From positions 948,445 through 1,012,444 of the forward strand of contig JAAOMT010000703.1 of assembly GCA_016748015.1 (NCBI GenBank): a stretch of DNA of 64,000 nucleotides, given 5' to 3'. A program made the position numbers and the translations under genes. Source of the stretch: Geosiphon pyriformis (lineage: Eukaryota > Glomeromycota > Glomeromycetes > Archaeosporales > Geosiphonaceae). The notes under the pieces are model-generated. The model was not told the origin of the DNA. It saw only the letters and a list, made by a program, of their open reading frames with translations, and ran no database searches. Positions 4,995-62,669 of the stretch are shown here, in pieces. Each line of letters starts with the position of its first letter. The stretch's first letter is position 1.

Positions 4995-7900
4995 TGACCA
5001 GTTATATTTGGAAAATTGCCACATGTAATATTAGGGGAATGAACAATCCTGCAAAACAGAAGGATGTTATTTGTTGGCATAAAGAAATGAACAATATGAT
5101 TTCAATTGTTACTGAGACTAAGTTGAAAAATGGGATTTGCCCTTGGATCATGAACAAGTTTGTTGGCATTCGGGTTTTTACTTCTGGTTTGAATTTTGGT
5201 CACATGGGTTTTGGGGTTGCAATCATTATGAACAATTTCTTGGCTCGGCATGTGTGTAAGGTTTCGGACATTCCTGGCCAGTTTCTTTCTATCAAACTTC
5301 TTTTCAAAAATAAACTGTCTGTGTTAGTTTTGGGGCTGTATGCTGAATCATCTTTGGCAGTATGTTTCTCTTAAGCAAATGATATCAATTCTTTGATTGC
5401 GAAGGCAGTAAATGAGTCTTCCTTTATTATCTTGGGTGAGGATTTCAATAAAGATGGTTCTCACAAAAGTGCCAGCTTCAGAAAATGTTTTGATTTGGGT
5501 TTGGTCAACTCCTTGAGTGGAAGCTTGTTTGGAAAGGAAGCTACATGGGCCAATTCTCATGGAGTGGCTAAAATTATTGATTATGTGTTTGTGTTATCGA
5601 GTCTAGTTAATGCAATTCTGGATTGTGATGTGTCTGGTGTTAAAGAATATTTTGATACTAATCATAAAGCTGTTTCTGTTTCTATGGGTCTTGGTGGTTT
5701 GCTGGATGCGCAGTTGAACACATTGCACAAACAAGTGAATAAGAATCATTGGAAGTACAATTTTGTGGATGCTGGTGATGCTGAATAGATCAAGTTTAAA
5801 GAGGATATGTTGGCAAATGCTGCCATGTTTCATGATGAATTTTATGCTGCCAAGATGAGTCTGGACCTGGACACAATGTGGGGTCACCTTCGCCAAGTGG
5901 TGTGTTTGTCGGCTAAGAATGTTTTCAAAAAAAAGTGGTTTAAAGGTTTCAATAGTGTCTATAATAAAGTATTATCCAGATTTCACAAATTAGAACTTTT
6001 GGTGTCAAAGATTGTCAAACCCTCTCATCTGGTCTCTCATGGGGAGTTTGCTTCTCTACTTGATACATGGAAAGGGATTGATCCTGCTAATGCTTCTGTT
6101 GTGGATTCTCTCTTTCTTTCGGGTTCCCATTTTGATACTATTCATTCAGCTTTGGCCAAGATCAGGAAATCCTACTGTTCATCTAAGTTGTCAGAATCAA
6201 ACCATGCCAAAGAATCTCAGATCAAGTCGGCGATTGACAAAAGAATAGAGAGTTTTGAGTTGAACAAAGGTCATACTGTACATAGTGTTTTGGAGTGACC
6301 CTTCCGCAAGATGGTTTTGGACCATTTGGTGGTAGGAGATGAGCTGGTGTTAGATCCTGCTCCAGTAAAGTCCAAGGTGGATGAGATTATAGAAGGTTGG
6401 ACTAGAAAGCGAAGGGTGGTGCTCGATGTTAATGATGAGTGGTTTTGCCAGTATTGTTCTCTAGGTTATGTTTTCAACAAAGCTTTTTCTGGTGTGATGG
6501 GTTTGATTGACTTTGATAAACTGTTTGGGGTTGTTTCCAACCTGCTGGATGGCAAAGCTGCTGGCCTTTTAGGTATTTCAAATAAGCTTTGAAAACATTG
6601 CGATATTTTGGTCCTTAATATACTCTTGGTGCTTTTGAACTCTTGTTTATCTGAGGAATCTGTCCCTGGCCCCTGGAGGGAAGCTTGGGTTTCAATAATT
6701 TCCAAACCATATGAATGGGAGGGTGTTCTTACAAATACTCATCCTATTGCACTAATTGAGACGGCTCACAAGATTCTCTCTAAAATACTCTCAGACAGGA
6801 TTTCTTTAGCATACAGCACTTATAATGTCCTTTGTGGTGACAATTTTTTGGTTTTGAAAGGTATGACGACACAGTCTCCCATTTTTGCAGTTGGTTCGGT
6901 TGTTGAGGATGCTCTGGAAAAGAACTGAGAACTTTAGCTGGTCTTGTAGGATATGAGGAAAGTGTATGATTTGGTTGGCTGGGAGCATTTGGAAAAGTGC
7001 CTGGTCAGAATTAAAATATGCAACAGGTTCATTCAGTTTTTTGGCAGCATTCACAAAAGTCGCACTAATCAAGTCATGACAAATTTTGGTTTGACAGATG
7101 GTTATTGGGTCTATGATAGTTTAGATCAAGGAGAGGTCTTTTCTCCCCTTCTGTGGTGCATTTTTTATGATCTCCTTTTGTGCGAAGTCAAGTGTCAGAA
7201 GAGTATGTGTGAGTACAGGCTAATTTCTCATTTTGTTTCCAAGAGTGGTCATGTTGAGTCACAGGCTGAGCTTTCTTTCTGTTTTGCTGCTGGCACCTTT
7301 GTTGATGATATGATTTGGATTGGCAGTAGTCAGAGTGCTACTCAACACATTTTGGATGTTGCTAGCGAGTTTTTCCAGATTAATGACATTTCAATAAACA
7401 ATGACAAGACTGTAGCTATTCCTATCAATTGTAGGGTTGGTAATCTCGCTCTTTTCATTAGTGGTTCACCTATCTCTGTTGCCAAAAAAGGTGAATCCCA
7501 TTGGTATCTGGGCATATTTCTGTCGACTGAGGGTTTTTCCAGACCTAGTTTAGCTAAAGTGCATTTGGACGTTCGTTTCTTTACAAATTTGGTTCTAAAA
7601 AAAGCTATCTTAGATAAGCAGTTCTTATATTTGGTTTCAGTGATTCTCCAGCCTATTATTAGCTACAGGACACAATTTAGCTTTGTTCTTATCAGCATTT
7701 GCAACAAGTGAGATGCTATGATTTGTAAAGATTTGAAGCTCAAATCTGGACTTCCACTTAACTTTCCTAGTGATTCGATTCACCACTCCTCCTTTTATGG
7801 TTTGAAATCTTTTCTGCAGATTCAGTCTGAAGGCAAGGTTGCTTCTCTTATTAATTTTGCCAACTCTGATAGGATTGTGGGACGTTTGTTCTCTTATAGA

Positions 7901-31599: not shown

Positions 31600-32950
31600 A
31601 TTGGTTTCAGATTTTATGGAATTTTATCTGGTTGGACTAATATTCCCTGTACTTCTAATTGTGGAATATTACTGGTAGATGATGACACTATATGGTAATA
31701 TGGTTTTAGTTAATTACTATGTGCTGCTTTGGCTAAGATTTTGTTGTCCTATCTTAATTTATAAGCTTTATTTCTAAGAATTTTTTCTATGTGAAATAGT
31801 CCATCCCATTTGAAGTCAAATTTTCTACTTTATTGTTTTTCCACTTTGGTATAATGTAAAAGTATTTTGTCTCCAATCTTAAATTCAATTGGTTTATCTG
31901 GTAGTTGGTTATCATGTCTTTTTTTTTGTTTCTCTTATGACTTTTGGATGTTATTAGCTGCTTTTCGCCATTTGTTTTTTAGTGTCTTCATTAAGTTATA
32001 TGTTCTTCTTAACAATGTTCTTTGGAAATTCTCTTCTGTTATTGGTTCTGTTGGATATGTTTTGATTTCTATCTTAACTGGTAATGTTGCTGTTCTACCA
32101 TATACTAATTCAAATGATGTTGCTTGTATAGTGTCTTGCTTCATTGTCCAATAAGCAAATAATACTGATGGTATAAACAAATCCCATTTATTTTGGTTTT
32201 CTTGGCTAATCTTGGCTATTGTTTTACACAATGTTCTGTTGAATCTTTTGACTAACTCATTTGTTTGTGAATGGTATGATGATAATAGTGGTCTTTTGAT
32301 TCCAAATCTTTGGCTTAATTTTGCTAATGTTCTGTTTACAAAGTGAGTTCCTTGATTAGATAATAATTCTTTTGGATATCTGTGTCGACAGATCAAGTCT
32401 TGATAAATGAATTTAGCAACGGATTCTGCATCTGCTCTTTGAATAGCTTTTGCTTTCAGCCATTTAGTAAAATAATCCATGGCTACTGCAATATATCTGT
32501 TGTCTTTGGTAATTATTGTTAATGGTCTGACTAGATCAATTCTAATTCGATCAAATAGTTGTCCCACTTTGATTGGTCTTAATGGTTTACTTGGCCTTGC
32601 TTCTCCTCTTCTCTGACAAGCATCACAATTTTAAACATATTGGATAATGTCTGGATATATTAATGACCAATAGTATCTTTTTCTGATTCTTTTCATAGTT
32701 GCTTCTCTATGGAAATGTTTTGCCATTGAATCTGAATGCATGTTGAATAATATTGTCTCTTTCTCTGGTTTTGTGATTACTCTGATTGGTTGATTTGAAT
32801 TCTTTCTATTTTTCTGGTAAAGTATATTTTGGTGGTTGATAAAATATTTTAATTGTTGTTTTATGTTGTTTTGTTCTTTTTGAGATAATTTCTCCTTAAA
32901 CAAATGAGTATTTATATAATGTTAGAGTTGTTGGTATTTTTGGATATTTA
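31600..32950 (-). pseudogene. Outer element integrase, catalytically dead
   Basis: Integrase inserts retrotransposon cDNA. The HHCC zinc domain is visible (HSDSMAKHFH, then CDAC, near 32760-32610), followed by a core readable over 31935-32567. The first catalytic Asp is at IRIDLV. The second reads SNQGTHF, where the family has SDQG, and the catalytic Glu position reads ELVKRFNRTL, where the family has E before RFN. Two of the three DDE residues are therefore gone, each explainable by G->A. The C-terminal domain continues below 31935 with stops. Confidence 0.82.
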
Positions 32951-38006: not shown

Positions 38007-39014
38007 CTATTGCATGTTCTCTGCCATTTTCATCTTTCTGTGAAAAGACAGCACCAAGTCCATAGCCAGATGTATCAGTGTGGAGAATAAAAGGTGATCC
38101 AGATCAAGTTGTTTGAGAATTGGTTCAATAACAAGTTTTTCCTTCAGAAATTCAAAAGCTTTTTGTTGATGAGTGCCCCAGTAATAATTGACATTTTTCC
38201 TGAGTAGCTGATTGAGAAGAAAGACGATTTTGGAGAAATCCTTAATAAATTTGTCATAGTAAGAGGCCAAACCAAGAAAAAAGCATAGTTTAGGAACATT
38301 CATTGGCTGTCTAATGTTCTGGACTTTTTCAACTTTAGCTAAGTCAGAGAAGATTCCATCTTTTGTAATAAGATGACCAAGAAACTGGGTGGATTGGCAT
38401 TTAAAGAAAGATTTGATTGGGTTGATCTTAAGGCCAGCATTTCTGAGCAGGTCAAAAACCTTCTGTAAATGTTTAAGGTGTTTATCTTAGGTTTTTGAAT
38501 ATACCATTATGTCATCCAAGTAAACCAGAACAAAGTTTTTTTTTACTGATTCAAACACTTTATCCATTAGGCATTGAAAGGTGAAAGAAGCATTAATGAG
38601 ACCAAAAAGCATAACTGTAAATTCATAGGTGCCATACTTGGTGATAAAGGCAGTTTTCTTTCTGCTTTCTGGATCCATCTCTACTTTCCAGAATTCAGCA
38701 GTTAAGTCAATAGTTGAGAAAAAAACAGCACCATTGAATTTATCTAGCATTGCATCAATTTTGGAGAGTGAATACATGTTTCTTATAGTGATGGCATTTA
38801 ATTGGCAGTAGTCAATACAGAAGCATAGAGTTCCACCTTTCTTGAATACTACTACAACTGGAAAAGCCCATTTACTCTTGGTTTCTTGTATGAATTCAAG
38901 ATCTTTCATCCAGTTTATCTCTTTCTTAATAAACTCATCATTGCATTGATTGGATTGATAAGGCTTCAAATGGATGGGACAAGTTTCTTTGGTGGTGATG
39001 GTGTATTGTATCAC
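38007..39014 (-). pseudogene. Nested element reverse transcriptase
   Basis: A long readable RT: FPVVVVFKKGGTLCFCIDY, YSLSKIDAMLDKFNGAVFFS, TIDLTAEFWKVEMDPESRKK, YGTYEFTVMLFGLINASFTF and the active site VLVYLDDIMVYSKT with YLDD intact (38490-38530). A stop follows at 38485, where the frame continues as KHLQKVFDLLRNAGLKINP and, after another stop, to 38007. It copies element RNA into cDNA in the virus-like particle. Confidence 0.88.
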
Positions 39015-39302
39015 ATAGGTTCATCTAGGGACATCACCTTCTTTTGAGATAATTGGGCTATTTCTAGCCAACAGATTTTCAATGTCCACTTTTCTTTCTT
39101 CAGGGGAAGGTTCTCTTTGTTCTATAATTAGTAACTGGATTTCAGGTGGTTTATTCTTAAAGGACTTTTGTACTTCTTTAAGTTCTTTTCGAGATATTAA
39201 ACTAATTGGTTCTCAATCTTTGTAATAGATTAGGCAGGATTTGCATTCATCACTTGATGAATACAAAGGTTTATTGCACTAGCACCATGCACAAGGGCCA
39301 TG

Positions 39303-55192: not shown

Positions 55193-58100
55193 ATGCCACG
55201 TGAACCAATTTTAAAACTTAGCATCATTAACATTGACAGCTATTTAGCTTCACCAGGGCCTTGGGATTTGAAATGTTCGTTTACACTTTCCGGGAAAAGT
55301 AATCGCGTTCCTGTAGTTAGAATTTTTGGTAGAACTCAAAGTGGACAGAGGGCTTGTTTGCATGTACACCAGGTATTACTAAAAAAAAAACGATTAAAAC
55401 GGGAAAAGTCAAACATTAGGGGGAACCTTTCGATTTTAATTTCTAAAATTTATTAAATGATTCATGTAGGCATTTCCTTATCTTTATATTCCTTATACGG
55501 GTTCATTGGAGCCAATCGAAGGTATTTTTTATTGAACATGTGCTTTTTTGCTTAATGCCCATAGGAGTTTCCTATTGATCCTGATTATTCCTTTCTAGCA
55601 CAACAATATATCCATCAATTCGGCAAAAGTCTTGATCGCGCTGTATCCCTGGTCTATAATGATTCAAATGATTCAAGGTTTACTCAATATGTAGCAGCTA
55701 TCATCTTAGTTAAAGGAGTCCCATTTTACGGTTATTACGTGGGCTATCGATATTTCTTGAAAATTTATTTATATCCTTTTTTCATTGTTCAAGATTGATT
55801 GATTAATTAGTGTTCCTTTCTTTTCAGCTGCTCTCTTTGAATCGTTGCTTTATATAATCTTTATATGCAACTTTACCTTTTACATTCAATCCAGATCTAA
55901 AGAGCAGGGTAGCTGAATTACTTCAACTTGGCTCTATTATGGGATGCAAGTTTCAACCGTATGAAGCCCATATCCCTTTTCTCCTCCAGTTTATGGTTGA
56001 CTATAATTTGTTTGGAATGAATTACATTCATCTTTCGGACGTCATGTTCCGCCAATTACCCCGTAAATTTGAAAAACTTCTCTTTGACTACTGGGTTTCT
56101 CACTTTATAAAGGTTTTTTGAGTACAATCTCTACTCTCTCAACGTTCATTCTAGTAACCCCCAACCTTAGGAGCGATCATGATAATTGCAACGTGAGGTA
56201 CCACCCTTCAGAAAATATATCAAAGAAAAACATCTGGGAACCATCTTTGAAAATAAGAAAACAAAGTTTTACCGAACTGGAGCTAGATGCTAAAGCTATA
56301 AATATCCTTTAGACTAATTCATCATCGAAACACAATTCTTTTTTTTCATAATCAATTAGCCCTTAGCGTTCCAATATTTTTCACATATAATTAATCGTGA
56401 TTGGATTCAGCCACGTGATATTCATCATAATTTATGGGAAGGATCCCTTTCAATCTATTCAGATAGGTTGCTATCATCTTTGAATTCTTTATGGGAGGTA
56501 AGAAATATAGAAAACAAATTATAAACCAATAAATTACATTTCGAACTGTATTTTAACTTTATATTTCTTAGGACGAAAGTCGACGACGTAAAGCAAGGGG
56601 TTTAGAGCTACCTAACGTTGTTGCAGAGTTTTCTTCTGCGTCCGAAGACGATCGCATTCCGCAACCTCTTCGGACAGTAGAGGACGATGAACTTTTACAA
56701 AAATTAAGCAATCTAAATTTGATGTGTAATAAAGAAGAATCAATACACAAAATTCAAGATTTCTTGCACAAAACGGATTCAGCGGCACACATTCCCACAG
56801 TATACGAAGCTGTTGAAGCCTTATATTTTTCAGAGAAGGAGCCTGAAATCAAGACTTTCTATGATTCATACAAAGAGGATCAGGGCTTTAATTCTTTAAA
56901 CAATTCCAGTTTAAGAGTTATTATCAATGAAGAAATAATCAGTCGAGCTAAGGACTGCTCAGGAGAAGTGAGAGATAATATTCGCCATTTTTGATTATCA
57001 TCAAATCAGTTAGAGAAAAACTTGATTTAATTTAGTTATTTCTACTAAAAGATAGAGGAAGAAGAAAGTGAAGATGAACTGTCCGCAAATCCAATATTAA
57101 TTGAAAAGCAAGGTCTGCAGATGGATGATGCTGAAAAAAAGGATGAATTAGATGAAGCTTTGCTCGGTTTATTGCGGCGAAAGACTTTATTCGCTGAAAA
57201 TTCTGATGGAGCACCGCATCAATCAGAAATTCAGCAAGATGACACAAACTTTTTAAAAGAATCAAAGTCATATCCCAGCAAATTAGGCAAAGAGAATTTG
57301 GAGAATTGTCGGAAATTCAGTCAGCAAAGCCAACAGAATTCAAATTTAGCAAGCACCTCTCCTAAGCCTCGAATTACGTCAAATAAAATAATATCTATTG
57401 GAACCCCTGCTTCACCATCAAGCTCTGGTAATTTCTTGATTCCAACGAATTCTATTGGATCTCAAGATTCGAAAGCTCGACTCAAGAGAACTTTCTCCCA
57501 AAGTTCTTCTACACTCTCTGATATAGAACATGAAGATAAGTTAGTGAATCATAGAGAAAGGCATTGTCATTATCGAGATCAGGCCTTTCCATTGGGAGAG
57601 TTAAGCCAATCCCAAAAAACTACGTTCTTTGATCCATTACAACCAACACAGAGGATAAAAGACACAGTATCTAAAAATTCTATCACTGGAATGGTGACAA
57701 AATTTATTACACGAAATACTAAGCTGAAATTTGACTGTGTAGAAATTCCTTTCAGTGATAAAATTCACCTCGCTTCATATAAACCAGTGGGGCTGCGCAT
57801 TAAAAACAAGAATATTCATAATGAAAGTGGAGGAATAAATTGTTTTGAGAATGACTCTAACGATCCTAATACCATACTTGAAAAAGATGAAAAAAAAAGT
57901 GTAGGACAAATAAATGCGGTAGAAATGGAGAAAGTATCAGCAAAATACAAAATCCCAAAAGGTTTTTTCATCCTTGAAATTAGTATCATCTATTTTAATC
58001 TTTTGCAAACCATCCTAAAAATTTTTAATCCCTAGATAATTTAATTCACATCTGTGTACCATTGAACTCCTTCGAGTCTCCATTGCCCACTATCCCTAAT

Positions 58101-61100
58101 TTATTTATATACCGTTTCCTTCCACCGACAACTGAAACTTTGTTAGAAAGCCTTTCGGATTTTGACCTGCCCTATGTTATCTATCAAGAACCTCACTTCA
58201 CAGATATATCTGATATACCTGAAAAGCCACGAATTTACGCAGGAAAAGAATTCAAAATAAAAGCTCAACATATTAAATTTATGAATGAATTCAATACTTA
58301 TGAGAAAAATGAAGATACAAACTTCATTCAAGGATTGACTGCGATTGAAGCTGACCTTGGAATTAAAAGCATGTATGCATCATTGATCTTAACCGAAATT
58401 ACTTTGACATATAAAGCTGAAAGGTTATCCTTATTAATTTGTCCATTTACGATAACGTTAGTAACACCGAATCGACAGCTATACGCGAGTGGACTTTTTA
58501 TAAACCACCCCCAAGTCAGCCAGATATGATGAAGTTCCTAAAAGATGAAAAAGATCACTTAGGTATGCTATATGATTTTCTGCTTTTTGAGCCATTATTA
58601 TTTAACTGTTTTTCATGGTTTCCCAATATTTTATAAGACCAAAAAGTATCAATCGGACTTGATTTATCTATTCTCAATATCTCCAAGGATCACCAGACTC
58701 GGAATTATCCAATGAAAACAGGAGTGTATCAAGTACAAGAAAGTCTCGGTATTTTTAGCTTAGAAATTCATGGTAATTATTTTCCCATTTAAATACATCT
58801 AAAATTACAAAATGTAAAATCTTGATTTATGTTTATATTTTATGTATCCTTTAGTAAACACTCGTGGAAATATTTTGCCCGACCCTAGGGAGGATAGCGT
58901 GACTGTGATTTTCTGGTGTCTTCAAAGTCCGGATCATGCTGCTTTATTAACTCCTGGAAAAAATGAAGACTGGCGAAATCGGTAAATTGATGATATATTG
59001 TCTTTACTTCTCAGGTTATTATAGTGAAAAGTTTAATTTTACAATAATCCGGTTTTAAGCTATCGTCAAGGTATACTGATGTTGGAGATTGACGGATTTG
59101 ACATAGACAAAATTGGCCTACATGGTATAGAACAATCTTAAATTTTATAAAGAAAAATTTGATAATTTACTCAACAATGGTTTATTTAGGGATCAAGCCA
59201 CAAATCTTCAGGGATGAATTATCCATGTATAAGCAATTAGTAAAATTGGTGCGGGATTTCGATCCTGATATTTTAGCGGGCTACGAGATTCACAATTCTT
59301 CTTGGGGGTATATTATTAAGCGTGGATTGGTTCAACATGGTAACATTTATGTTTTTTTATTCTTTGCTTCTAATCCTAAATTTGCCATATCCTTATTTTC
59401 ATTAACAATATTTGTTTATATCAATAGAAATAAATCTTTGTCATGAATTTTCACGAATCATCATCACCACAAAACATAGAAACGATATCATGAATGATGC
59501 ATGGGGTTTACGAAAAGCATCAGCAATTCATGTCGTTGGTAGGCACGTGTTGAACATATGGAGAATAATTCGTGGCCAAATGGATTTAAATATTTATACG
59601 TATCAGAATGTAGTATGGCATCTTTTGCATGAAAGGTAATAGTATTAACAACTATTTTAGTCTCTATATGAATGCAATTCTCCACCTTGCTGAGAATGCA
59701 TAATTCCCTAGGGTTCCTCATTATTCAAACCAAACCATGACTCTTTGGTTCACTCATGGACCAACTATTTTGAAATGCCGCGTTTTCAACCATTATCTGG
59801 ACCATGTGAAAAGAAATATCGATATTCTAAACAAATCGCATTTCATCAATCGAACAAGGTAAGAGAAATCAGTATCCCTTTGATGAAATCAAAAAGTTGA
59901 AATCCTTTCCTGCCTGAACAACTAATATTATTGGGCCCTTAGTGAATTTTCTCAAATATTTGGAATCGATTTCTATTCGGTATTATCTCGCGGCTCGCAA
60001 TTTAAAGTGGAATCAATCATGTTGCGTATTGCAAAACCCGAAAGCTTTGTGTTGATTTCGCCGAGCCGTGAACAAGTGATTTTTTTATTGTTCGACTTTT
60101 TTTCAGAAATTAAATGTCGTGTATTGATATTTTTTTTATTTACATAGGTTGCTAATCAACGGGCTGCTGAATGCATACCTTTAATCATGGAACCGCAACC
60201 GGAATTTTACAACAGTCCAATTTTGGTTTTGGATTTTCAATCACTTTACCCTTCAATTATGATTGCTTATAATTATTGGTGATCTATTTTATTAGAGCAA
60301 TTTTTCTCATACTTTCTGAATTACTCACCTTATTTCTTGGCCTATTTGCAGCTATTCCACTTGCTTGGGAAAACTTGAGCTTGACGATGAAACATCCAAT
60401 GTATTTGGGGTCACAACCTATAATAGGGAAGATGCTCTTTTATTGATTTTCAAAGATTATCTTAATGGTTCAGTCTCTTTATTTCTTCAGTCCATGGGTT
60501 TTCATTGTTTGCCGATTAAATTTAACAATATTAAGGCTTTCTTTATGACAAAAAAAGTTGCTCCTAATGGCCTCATTTATGTCAAACCTCATGTTAGAAA
60601 GAGTCTATTGGCAAAGATGTTAAAAGAAATCTTAGACACACGAATCATGTTGAAAAAATCTATGGGGTTATATAAAGACGATAAGGTATATTTTGATTTT
60701 AGCTTCATTTATATTTTCGTAAATAAAATTTTCATTTTTACATCTCTGAATTGATTTCCGTTAGAACTTGTGTGATATTTTGGACGCAAGGCAACTCGGT
60801 TTAAAATATCTCGCTAATGTCACTTATGGGTACACAGGGGCTACCTTTTCAGGACGAATGCCTTGCGTTGATATTGCCGATAGCATTGTTCAGACAGGAA
60901 GAGAAACTTTAGAGAAGGTAATAAAAATTTAATGGCATTACAATCTTCTGCTTTTATTTAATGGCATCTATGTTATTAGGCCGTTGATTTGATTCACTTC
61001 ACCAAGCGTTGGGGAGCCAAAGTCGTATATGGCGATACCGATAGGTAGGGATTATTATTAAATAATTGGATTAAACTATATTTTTTAAACCAGGAAACAT

Positions 61101-62669
61101 AATATTTATTTCTTGAATCTACAGTTTATTCGTTTATTTACCAGGTCGAAGCAAAGATCAAGCATTTGAAATCGGCAACGAGATCGCGGAAGCTGTCACT
61201 CAAATGAATCCCAAACCCGTTAAATTGAAGTTTGAGAAGGTGAAGCTGCAAATAAAAACATACGATTAAAGTGCGATTTCAAAAAACATATCTGTTCCTT
61301 ATATTTTTTCTCCTTAGGTTTATCTTCCATCCATATTGCTTGCAAAGAAAAGGTATATCGGTTTCAAATTCGAGACCAAAAATGATTTGGAGGCCGAACT
61401 AGATGCTAAGGGAATGGAACTAATCCGCAGAGATGGAGTGCAAATTACACGTAAGCTGATGGAAGAATGTATTAGGTATGAATTCAAACCTTTGCCAAAC
61501 CACTTTGTTCCATTCAGGATTTTCCTTCTTTAATCCAAATTTTTATAAAAACATTTCATGTAAGACTACTTTTTCGCACCCAAAATCTTTCCGAAATTAA
61601 AATATACTTGGAAGATCAGTGGGCGAGAATTCTTTCAGGACGGGTATCAATTAAAGATTTTATATTTTCCAAAGAGGTCAAATTTGGAACCTATGCGTAT
61701 GTATGACAACAATAGTTTTCGTTTGGTAGAGATTTTCCATCTTATTTTTTTTTAATCAGTGATGGATCACATTTACCCCCTGGTGCTATCTTGAGCACCC
61801 GCCGGATGGCAGCTGACTATCGTACAGAGCCACAATATGGAGAACGAGTGCCATATGTAGTTGTACGTGGTGCTCCCGGAGAAAGATTAATAAATAGAAT
61901 TGTATCTCCAGACGAATTAGCGAGCAGCAGGTTCGTTCTAAAACTATCATTCTTCATCTTATTAAATTATAAAAAATCTTTTTCTCACTCTTATTTTGAT
62001 GTTTAAGAGTCCTACGTCTTGATGGCCATTACTATATCTCAAAACAAATTATACCTGCAATCGCAAGAATTTTCAATCTAGTAGGAGTGGGTCAGTAAAA
62101 TTGCTCATTTAATTCCACTATATCATTGAATAGGTAATGGGTTAATTAACTTATATTAGATATTGAAACTTGGTACGAGAAAATGCCGCGTACTTTAAAT
62201 TCCAACACTCGTCATTCTGCGGGAATTAACTTTTACTATTGGAGCGGGACATGCATAAATTGTGGAGCCAATGTGGATTCCGTGCGAGGTTTGTCGGTCT
62301 CAATTTCCCTCGATTAAGCATAGAATTATTTTTAATTCTGAATCTTCAACTTTGTACCTTTGGGATTATTTTTCTCCGAATGCCGCCTCGTGGAAACTAT
62401 TTAAAGTAATATGTGAGGAATGTGTTGACGCATCACGAATTACAGCTTTTCAATTGCAAAAAAAGCTTCAACATACCCAACGGCGGTTTCGATCCCTTGT
62501 TGATATCTGTGCGATGTGCTCACGCCAACCAACGGCCATCTGTGATATAGCATGTGATTCAATGGATTGTCCAGTATTTTTTGAGAGAGCAAAGGCCAAA
62601 AGTGAATTACGAATGGAGCAGCACGTTAATGAGCTAGTGGAAGATTTATTAGAATACAGTTTGGATTGA
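55193..62669 (+). CDS. REV3: REV3, catalytic subunit of DNA polymerase zeta
   Basis: Translesion B-family polymerase. 28 exons: 55193-55372, 55470-55521, 55599-55770, 55884-56062, 56155-56301, 56385-56497, 56572-56967, 57052-57982 (or 57961), 58036-58372, 58462-58562, 58638-58772, 58855-58981, 59060-59124, 59190-59339, 59428-59635, 59712-59858, 59943-60075, 60148-60278, 60352-60685, 60765-60917, 60980-61044, 61125-61239, 61318-61475, 61565-61696, 61760-61930, 62008-62090, 62160-62288, 62407-62669. All phases agree: about 1,768 aa (yeast about 1,500). The N-terminal domain has RVPVVRIFGRTQSGQ and QPYEAHIPFLLQFMVDYNLF. Motif A DFQSLYPS, motif B region LANVTYGYTGATFSGRMP, motif C YGDTDS. Exonuclease region DPDILAGYEIHNSSW, inactive in this family. 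C-terminal CINC...CEEC and CAMC...CDSMDC metal sites, the second expected to hold Fe-S. Introns 3 and 5 are AT-AC. Confidence 0.93.
55771..55883 (+). other. AT-AC (U12-type) intron 3 of REV3
   Basis: 113 nt, beginning ATATCCTTTTTTC and ending CTTTTAC. Removing it joins GGYRYFLKIYL-type coding to FNPDLKSRVAELLQ, matching the conserved Rev3 order (KIYLYNP in other species), with phase 2 kept on both sides. No GT-AG pair keeps this conserved segment. The 5' site fits the minor-spliceosome consensus ATATCCTTT exactly. The branch-point match to TTCCTTRAY is weak (best about 5 of 9). Confidence 0.85.
56302..56384 (+). other. AT-AC (U12-type) intron 5 of REV3
   Basis: 83 nt, beginning ATATCCTTTAG and ending TTTTTCAC. 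It joins ELELDAKAIN to IINRDWIQP, which parallels the conserved ELE.D...DILNR stretch of Rev3 proteins, in phase 1. Reading on without splicing meets a stop at once. A candidate branch site, GCCCTTAGC, lies about 19 nt from the 3' end (6 of 9 positions). Confidence 0.85.

Follow-up and report, generated by a model that had tools for sequence, protein, structure and literature searches.

The REV3 gene of Geosiphon pyriformis, encoding the catalytic subunit of DNA polymerase zeta, very probably carries in its 5′ part two genuine U12-dependent AT-AC introns that are removed by a conserved minor spliceosome. We infer their splicing from features observed directly, namely intron sequence, reading frame, conservation and matches to snRNA and protein genes. 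The features discussed below are listed in Table 1 and lie in a 64,000-nucleotide stretch of contig JAAOMT010000703.1, referred to as the window.

Table 1. Features of the REV3 gene, its AT-AC introns and competing intron borders. Positions are those of the window.
Feature	Position	Strand	Basis and remarks
REV3, DNA polymerase zeta catalytic subunit, start to stop codon	55193..62669	+	ends checked
First AT-AC intron, 113 bases, phase 2	55771..55883	+	309.5 bits, shared top rank among 2913 in-frame excisions
U12-type 5′ splice site ATATCCTTT, first AT-AC intron	55771..55779	+	motif scan
Second AT-AC intron, 83 bases, phase 1	56302..56384	+	tenth of 3158 excisions, 309.5 bits
U12-type 5′ splice site ATATCCTTT, second AT-AC intron	56302..56310	+	motif scan
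Weak candidate branch site GCCCTTAGC, second AT-AC intron, 6/9	56359..56367	+	no better than shuffles
Closest GT-AG rival, first intron	55787..55902	+	300.1 versus 309.5 bits; loses conserved NP
GT-AG intron fitting the public protein, first site; removes GYYVGYRYFLKIYLFNP	55731..55894	+	252.2 bits
GT-AG intron fitting the public protein, second site; removes exon end with ELELDAKAIN	56193..56359	+	276.6 bits
Ordinary GT-AG intron	55522-55598	+	alignment with relatives and public protein
Ordinary GT-AG intron	56063-56154	+	alignment with relatives and public protein
Ordinary GT-AG intron	about 62289-62406	+	alignment with relatives and public protein

The REV3 gene of G. pyriformis

The deduced protein found its top match in the G. 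pyriformis protein P0001 (G9A89_014672; 93% identity over 100% of the query). A domain search revealed REV3_N and POL3_N domains in the REV3 product and placed the polymerase domain at residues 1104–1552 of P0001. A 117-residue N-terminal probe detected a single locus in the genome (124.7 Mb, 406 contigs). The query protein used for the best-match search and for the alignments with yeast and with eight fungi was inaccurate at 55522–55598 and 56063–56154 and ended before about 62289–62406. NCBI taxonomy places G. pyriformis, a symbiotic and early-diverging fungus, in the Glomeromycotina, Archaeosporales. Among the matches listed (120 of 662, and 32 of a second search), many of which were nameless, none besides that of Geosiphon was a REV3 named as coming from the Glomeromycotina.

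A check of 15 other introns in the gene model confirmed GT-AG ends. Three apparent +1 frame breaks were considered as further unusual introns and rejected, as alignments with relatives and with the public protein resolved them into ordinary GT-AG introns. The public protein and our gene model also disagree at 58395–58500 and 60470–60560, where the former reads GIKS|INTEST and DYLN|VAPNG. Elsewhere in the window, reverse transcriptase and integrase domains scoring over the Pfam cut-offs marked retroelement remains at 6950–7708 (plus strand), 31938–32630 and 38490–39020 (both minus strand).

Position, frame and conservation of the AT-AC introns

Inspection of the sequence bore out the positions proposed in an earlier note on this DNA: both introns start with ATATCCTTT and end with AC. 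Their excision restores the reading frame in phases 2 and 1, as had also been claimed, giving FLKIYL|FNPDLKSRV at the first and ELELDAKAI|NIINRDW at the second junction. Each of them has an RTATCCTT 5′ splice site and, where the frame is restored, ends in AC, both hallmarks of U12-type AT-AC introns.

Across neither junction did the alignment contain a gap in any of the eight other fungal Rev3 proteins. The yeast Rev3 protein of known structure was ungapped over the first junction; the second lay outside the aligned part. A second alignment comprised 12 of the 32 rows from a second protein search plus P0016. The first junction was ungapped in 12 of these 13 public rows, Basidiobolus being the exception. 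At the second junction the conserved frame was kept in 11 rows, the exceptions being Basidiobolus and the Aphanomyces row P0270, which diverges past ILN.

Minor-spliceosome components in the genome

A genome search for the minor snRNAs, as the earlier note had advised, yielded matches over the Rfam cut-offs for U11 (80.9 bits), U6atac (70.9 bits) and U12 (55.1 bits), and a U4atac match of 43.7 bits (E 1.7e-4), below its cut-off of 53. The alignments showed intact GAGUAAGGA in U12, AAGGAGAGA in U6atac and AAAAGGG in U11, which we take to be the recognition motifs of these RNAs. The window as a whole gave no Rfam match at gathering scores.

The search for minor-specific proteins covered PDCD7, CENATAC, 48K and SCNM1. 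The PDCD7 (59K) family scored over its cut-off (35.6 bits) and matched none of the control genomes. Three CENATAC matches over cut-off were located inside 1.7 kb of one contig. A 48K-type zinc finger also exceeded its cut-off, in a family that is unspecific and matched a control archaeon as well. The genome gave no match to zf-SCNM1, in a search of an uninformative kind. Together with the additional AT-AC introns described in the next section, the snRNA, PDCD7 and CENATAC matches support the proposal that this genome holds minor-class AT-AC introns alongside parts of the minor spliceosome.

Further AT-AC introns

The pattern RTATCCTTT N40–70 TTCCTTRAY occurred 13 times in the genome, compared with 14 matches of a reversed control and 11 of a swapped-order control. 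Since 13 does not exceed either control, the count in itself proves nothing. Ten of the 11 swapped-order places apparently belong to one dispersed repeat family, in which TTCCTTRAT and GTATCCTTT span 64–67 bases end to end and which swamps naive counts of U12-like motifs.

It is the coding context, not the pattern count, that speaks for other AT-AC minor introns. At nine of the 13 pattern loci, with 3′ ends picked by eye beforehand, at least 100 of 120 codons were open across the junction. L010 was also open, with an ambiguous 3′ end, and L008, L011 and L018 were unconvincing. Nine peptides (L006, L007, L009, L010, L012, L013, L014, L015 and L017) were submitted to a domain search, from which L016 was omitted for being paralogous to L013, and the loci L008, L011 and L018 for want of a convincing junction. 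In four of the nine, a Pfam domain over cut-off spanned the AT-AC junction: a MIOS WD40 domain, a ubiquitin-conjugating fold, an NF-YB histone fold and a syntaxin-6 N-terminal domain. The paralogues L013 and L016 have, at the same place, a GT-AG intron with the U12-type start GTATCCTTT; L013 gave no Pfam domain match.

The NF-YB gene (L014) illustrates how gene models seem to fail at AT-AC introns. Its intron resembles those of REV3 in starting with ATATCCTTT, ending with AC and being missed by the public model, and it lies in phase 2 like the first REV3 intron. Unlike the REV3 pair with their weak branch sites, it possesses a perfect one, TTCCTTAAT, 25 bases from the 3′ end. Seven public fungal NF-YB proteins, picked by hand among the 120 matches listed, were aligned, and four of them (P0199, P0160, P0147 and P0211) break at the AT-AC junction. 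The proteins of Rhizophagus clarus and Gigaspora rosea contain YP directly after SE, which corresponds to translated GA|ATATCC. Because public proteins break at this point, two of them with a read-through YP, the NF-YB intron looks to be shared across the Glomeromycotina.

Weak branch sites

Both REV3 introns lack the TTCCTTRAY-like branch site, about 10–25 bases from the 3′ end, that the U12 type would lead one to expect. The poor branch-point matches remarked on earlier were evident here too. The best agreement with TTCCTTRAY was 6/9 in each intron, a value equalled by 88% and 80% of shuffled sequences, and the strongest pairing that either intron could form with the U12 loop lay inside the range of GT-AG introns from the same gene. 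Minor introns tend strongly towards TTCCTTRAY without being strictly bound to it, so this result weakens the assignment of the REV3 introns to the U12 type but does not lead us to abandon it.

The weak sites had been taken as a possible sign of a relaxed branch-site consensus in the Geosiphon lineage. Neither REV3 intron has a good branch site, as such a relaxation would predict. However, U12 retains GAGUAAGGA unchanged, and perfect branch sites are found in AT-AC introns elsewhere in the genome, a set that was picked for the perfect motif and from which the frequency of weak sites therefore cannot be read. Given the unchanged U12 loop and the perfect sites elsewhere, lineage-wide relaxation is unsupported, and we regard it as unlikely.

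AT-AC versus GT-AG borders

Intron borders were compared with a Rev3 profile built from eight of ten aligned rows, our own gene model and the public Geosiphon protein being excluded. All in-frame, stop-free excisions within a limited border range were scored, whatever their end dinucleotides. For the first intron, the AT-AC excision tied with two slides that yield an identical protein, and the best GT-AG excision fell 9.4 bits below it. For the second, the nine excisions ranking above AT-AC all shift an 83-base intron along the sequence, gain no more than 2.2 bits by it and in no case have GT-AG ends; the best GC-AG excision reached 301.3 bits (8.2 below AT-AC) and the best GT-AG excision 288.7 bits. 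Borders fitting the public REV3 protein scored 57 bits (first site) and 33 bits (second site) below AT-AC. The POL3_N domain scored 87.9 bits in the AT-AC model, 82.0 bits with the 55787–55902 intron and 53.0 bits in the public protein. The public gene model thus appears to miss both AT-AC introns and to delete conserved residues.

These scores bear on the alternative that both introns are ordinary GT-AG introns spliced by the major spliceosome, with the public-protein borders or those at 55787–55902, and that the ATATCCTTT stretches are coincidental. The earlier statement that no GT-AG alternative exists was too strong, as in-frame GT-AG introns can be drawn at 55787–55902, 55731–55894 and 56193–56359. 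The frame stays open with such introns, two of them fit the public protein, and the first of the three costs just 9.4 bits. Against this, residues conserved in eight of eight aligned relatives would be lost, the profile score would be lower, by 9.4 or 57 bits for the first intron and by 21 or 33 bits for the second, and two exact U12-type 5′ splice sites at the required junctions would have to be due to chance.

How much chance this would demand was calculated. The bare U12 5′ motif is not special in the window (RTATCCTTT: three seen, 2.46 expected); its position in REV3 is. On the plus strand of the REV3 span 0.12 occurrences of ATATCCTTT were expected and two were seen, both at required junctions. 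Under a first-order Markov background, the expected number of junctions at most 5 bits from the best that start with ATATCCTTT and end with AC was approx. 8e-6 for the first and 1.4e-5 for the second intron. These values are uncorrected for the number of places that might have been inspected, but leave ample room for such a correction. Altogether, we consider ordinary GT-AG introns very unlikely. Even less probable is removal of the AT-AC introns by the major spliceosome, which is reported for a few AT-AC introns in human cells (PMC8280824) and would agree with the poor branch sites, but is opposed by the full U12-type ATATCCTTT 5′ sites and the minor-spliceosome parts in the genome.

REV3 of Basidiobolus and published minor introns

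In the exceptional Basidiobolus meristosporus protein (P0241), the first junction has the sequence FLKIYL-YPY-VNPN. The three-residue insert YPY is absent from the other 12 public rows and from the eight earlier fungal relatives, and TT|ATATCC would read L-Y-P. Basidiobolus therefore probably has the first AT-AC intron at the same place. At the second junction the P0241 sequence is VVGNILYLMLLLTL, with loss of the INR...HH motif; A|ATATCCTTTAY would read N-I-L-Y. This sign is weak because P0258, a further row, natively has NIL there and five of the 12 have IL, and the second intron is possibly present at the same place as well.

Larue and Roy (2023, PMC10639083) counted 205 minor introns in Rhizophagus irregularis and 249 in B. 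meristosporus, and cite approx. 4 for Rhizopus and 20 for Phycomyces. Their survey assigns B. meristosporus to the Zoopagomycota; NCBI taxonomy now has Basidiobolomycota. The REV3 introns agree with that survey in their occurrence in an early-diverging fungus and in their phases, 1 and 2 being favoured over 0. Four minor snRNAs are reported for R. irregularis, compared with three over cut-off and U4atac below it in Geosiphon. Geosiphon differs in belonging to another genus and order, and the parts of the survey consulted make no mention of REV3. Among open-licence full texts, we found no report of minor introns in REV3/REV3L or in Geosiphon. Since this survey (PMC10639083) has already documented minor introns from Glomeromycota, the Geosiphon REV3 pair is a solid but modest extension, the surprise being that Basidiobolus probably shares the position.

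Implications for REV3 expression

According to the proposed mechanism, U11 and U12 would bind the 5′ splice site and the poor branch site of the REV3 introns. The U4atac.U6atac complex would join and act in catalysis, and both introns would be removed, perhaps slowly. In human cells, CENATAC promotes mainly AT-AN (A-type) minor introns (PMC8280824). The REV3 introns share the AT-AC ends, and the Geosiphon genome contains a CENATAC-family match; the dependence itself was demonstrated in human cells. Because the REV3 introns are A-type, CENATAC would be expected to aid their removal.

Translation of the unspliced sequences showed that retention of the first intron leads to a stop after residue 143 and retention of the second to a stop after residue 246, both before the polymerase domain. 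Since retaining either intron ends the frame before this domain, Rev3 output should require the minor spliceosome, and such a dependence can fairly be inferred. A more far-reaching scenario, which we offer as speculation with little likelihood of being correct, would give the two introns a long shared history, with position and phase unchanged between Basidiobolus and Geosiphon. Their poor branch sites would make them a double bottleneck, slow and dependent on CENATAC; minor-spliceosome capacity would thereby determine translesion synthesis by polymerase zeta and, through it, the mutation rate of these fungi.

The public REV3 gene model seems to be wrong precisely where the AT-AC introns sit. 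Short read-through peptides in public proteins, such as EYP and LYP, which would represent a translated U12 5′ site, may offer a cheap route to AT-AC introns elsewhere. For Geosiphon itself, the results would extend minor introns and minor-spliceosome parts to this fungus and point to a DNA-repair polymerase gene with two A-type introns.
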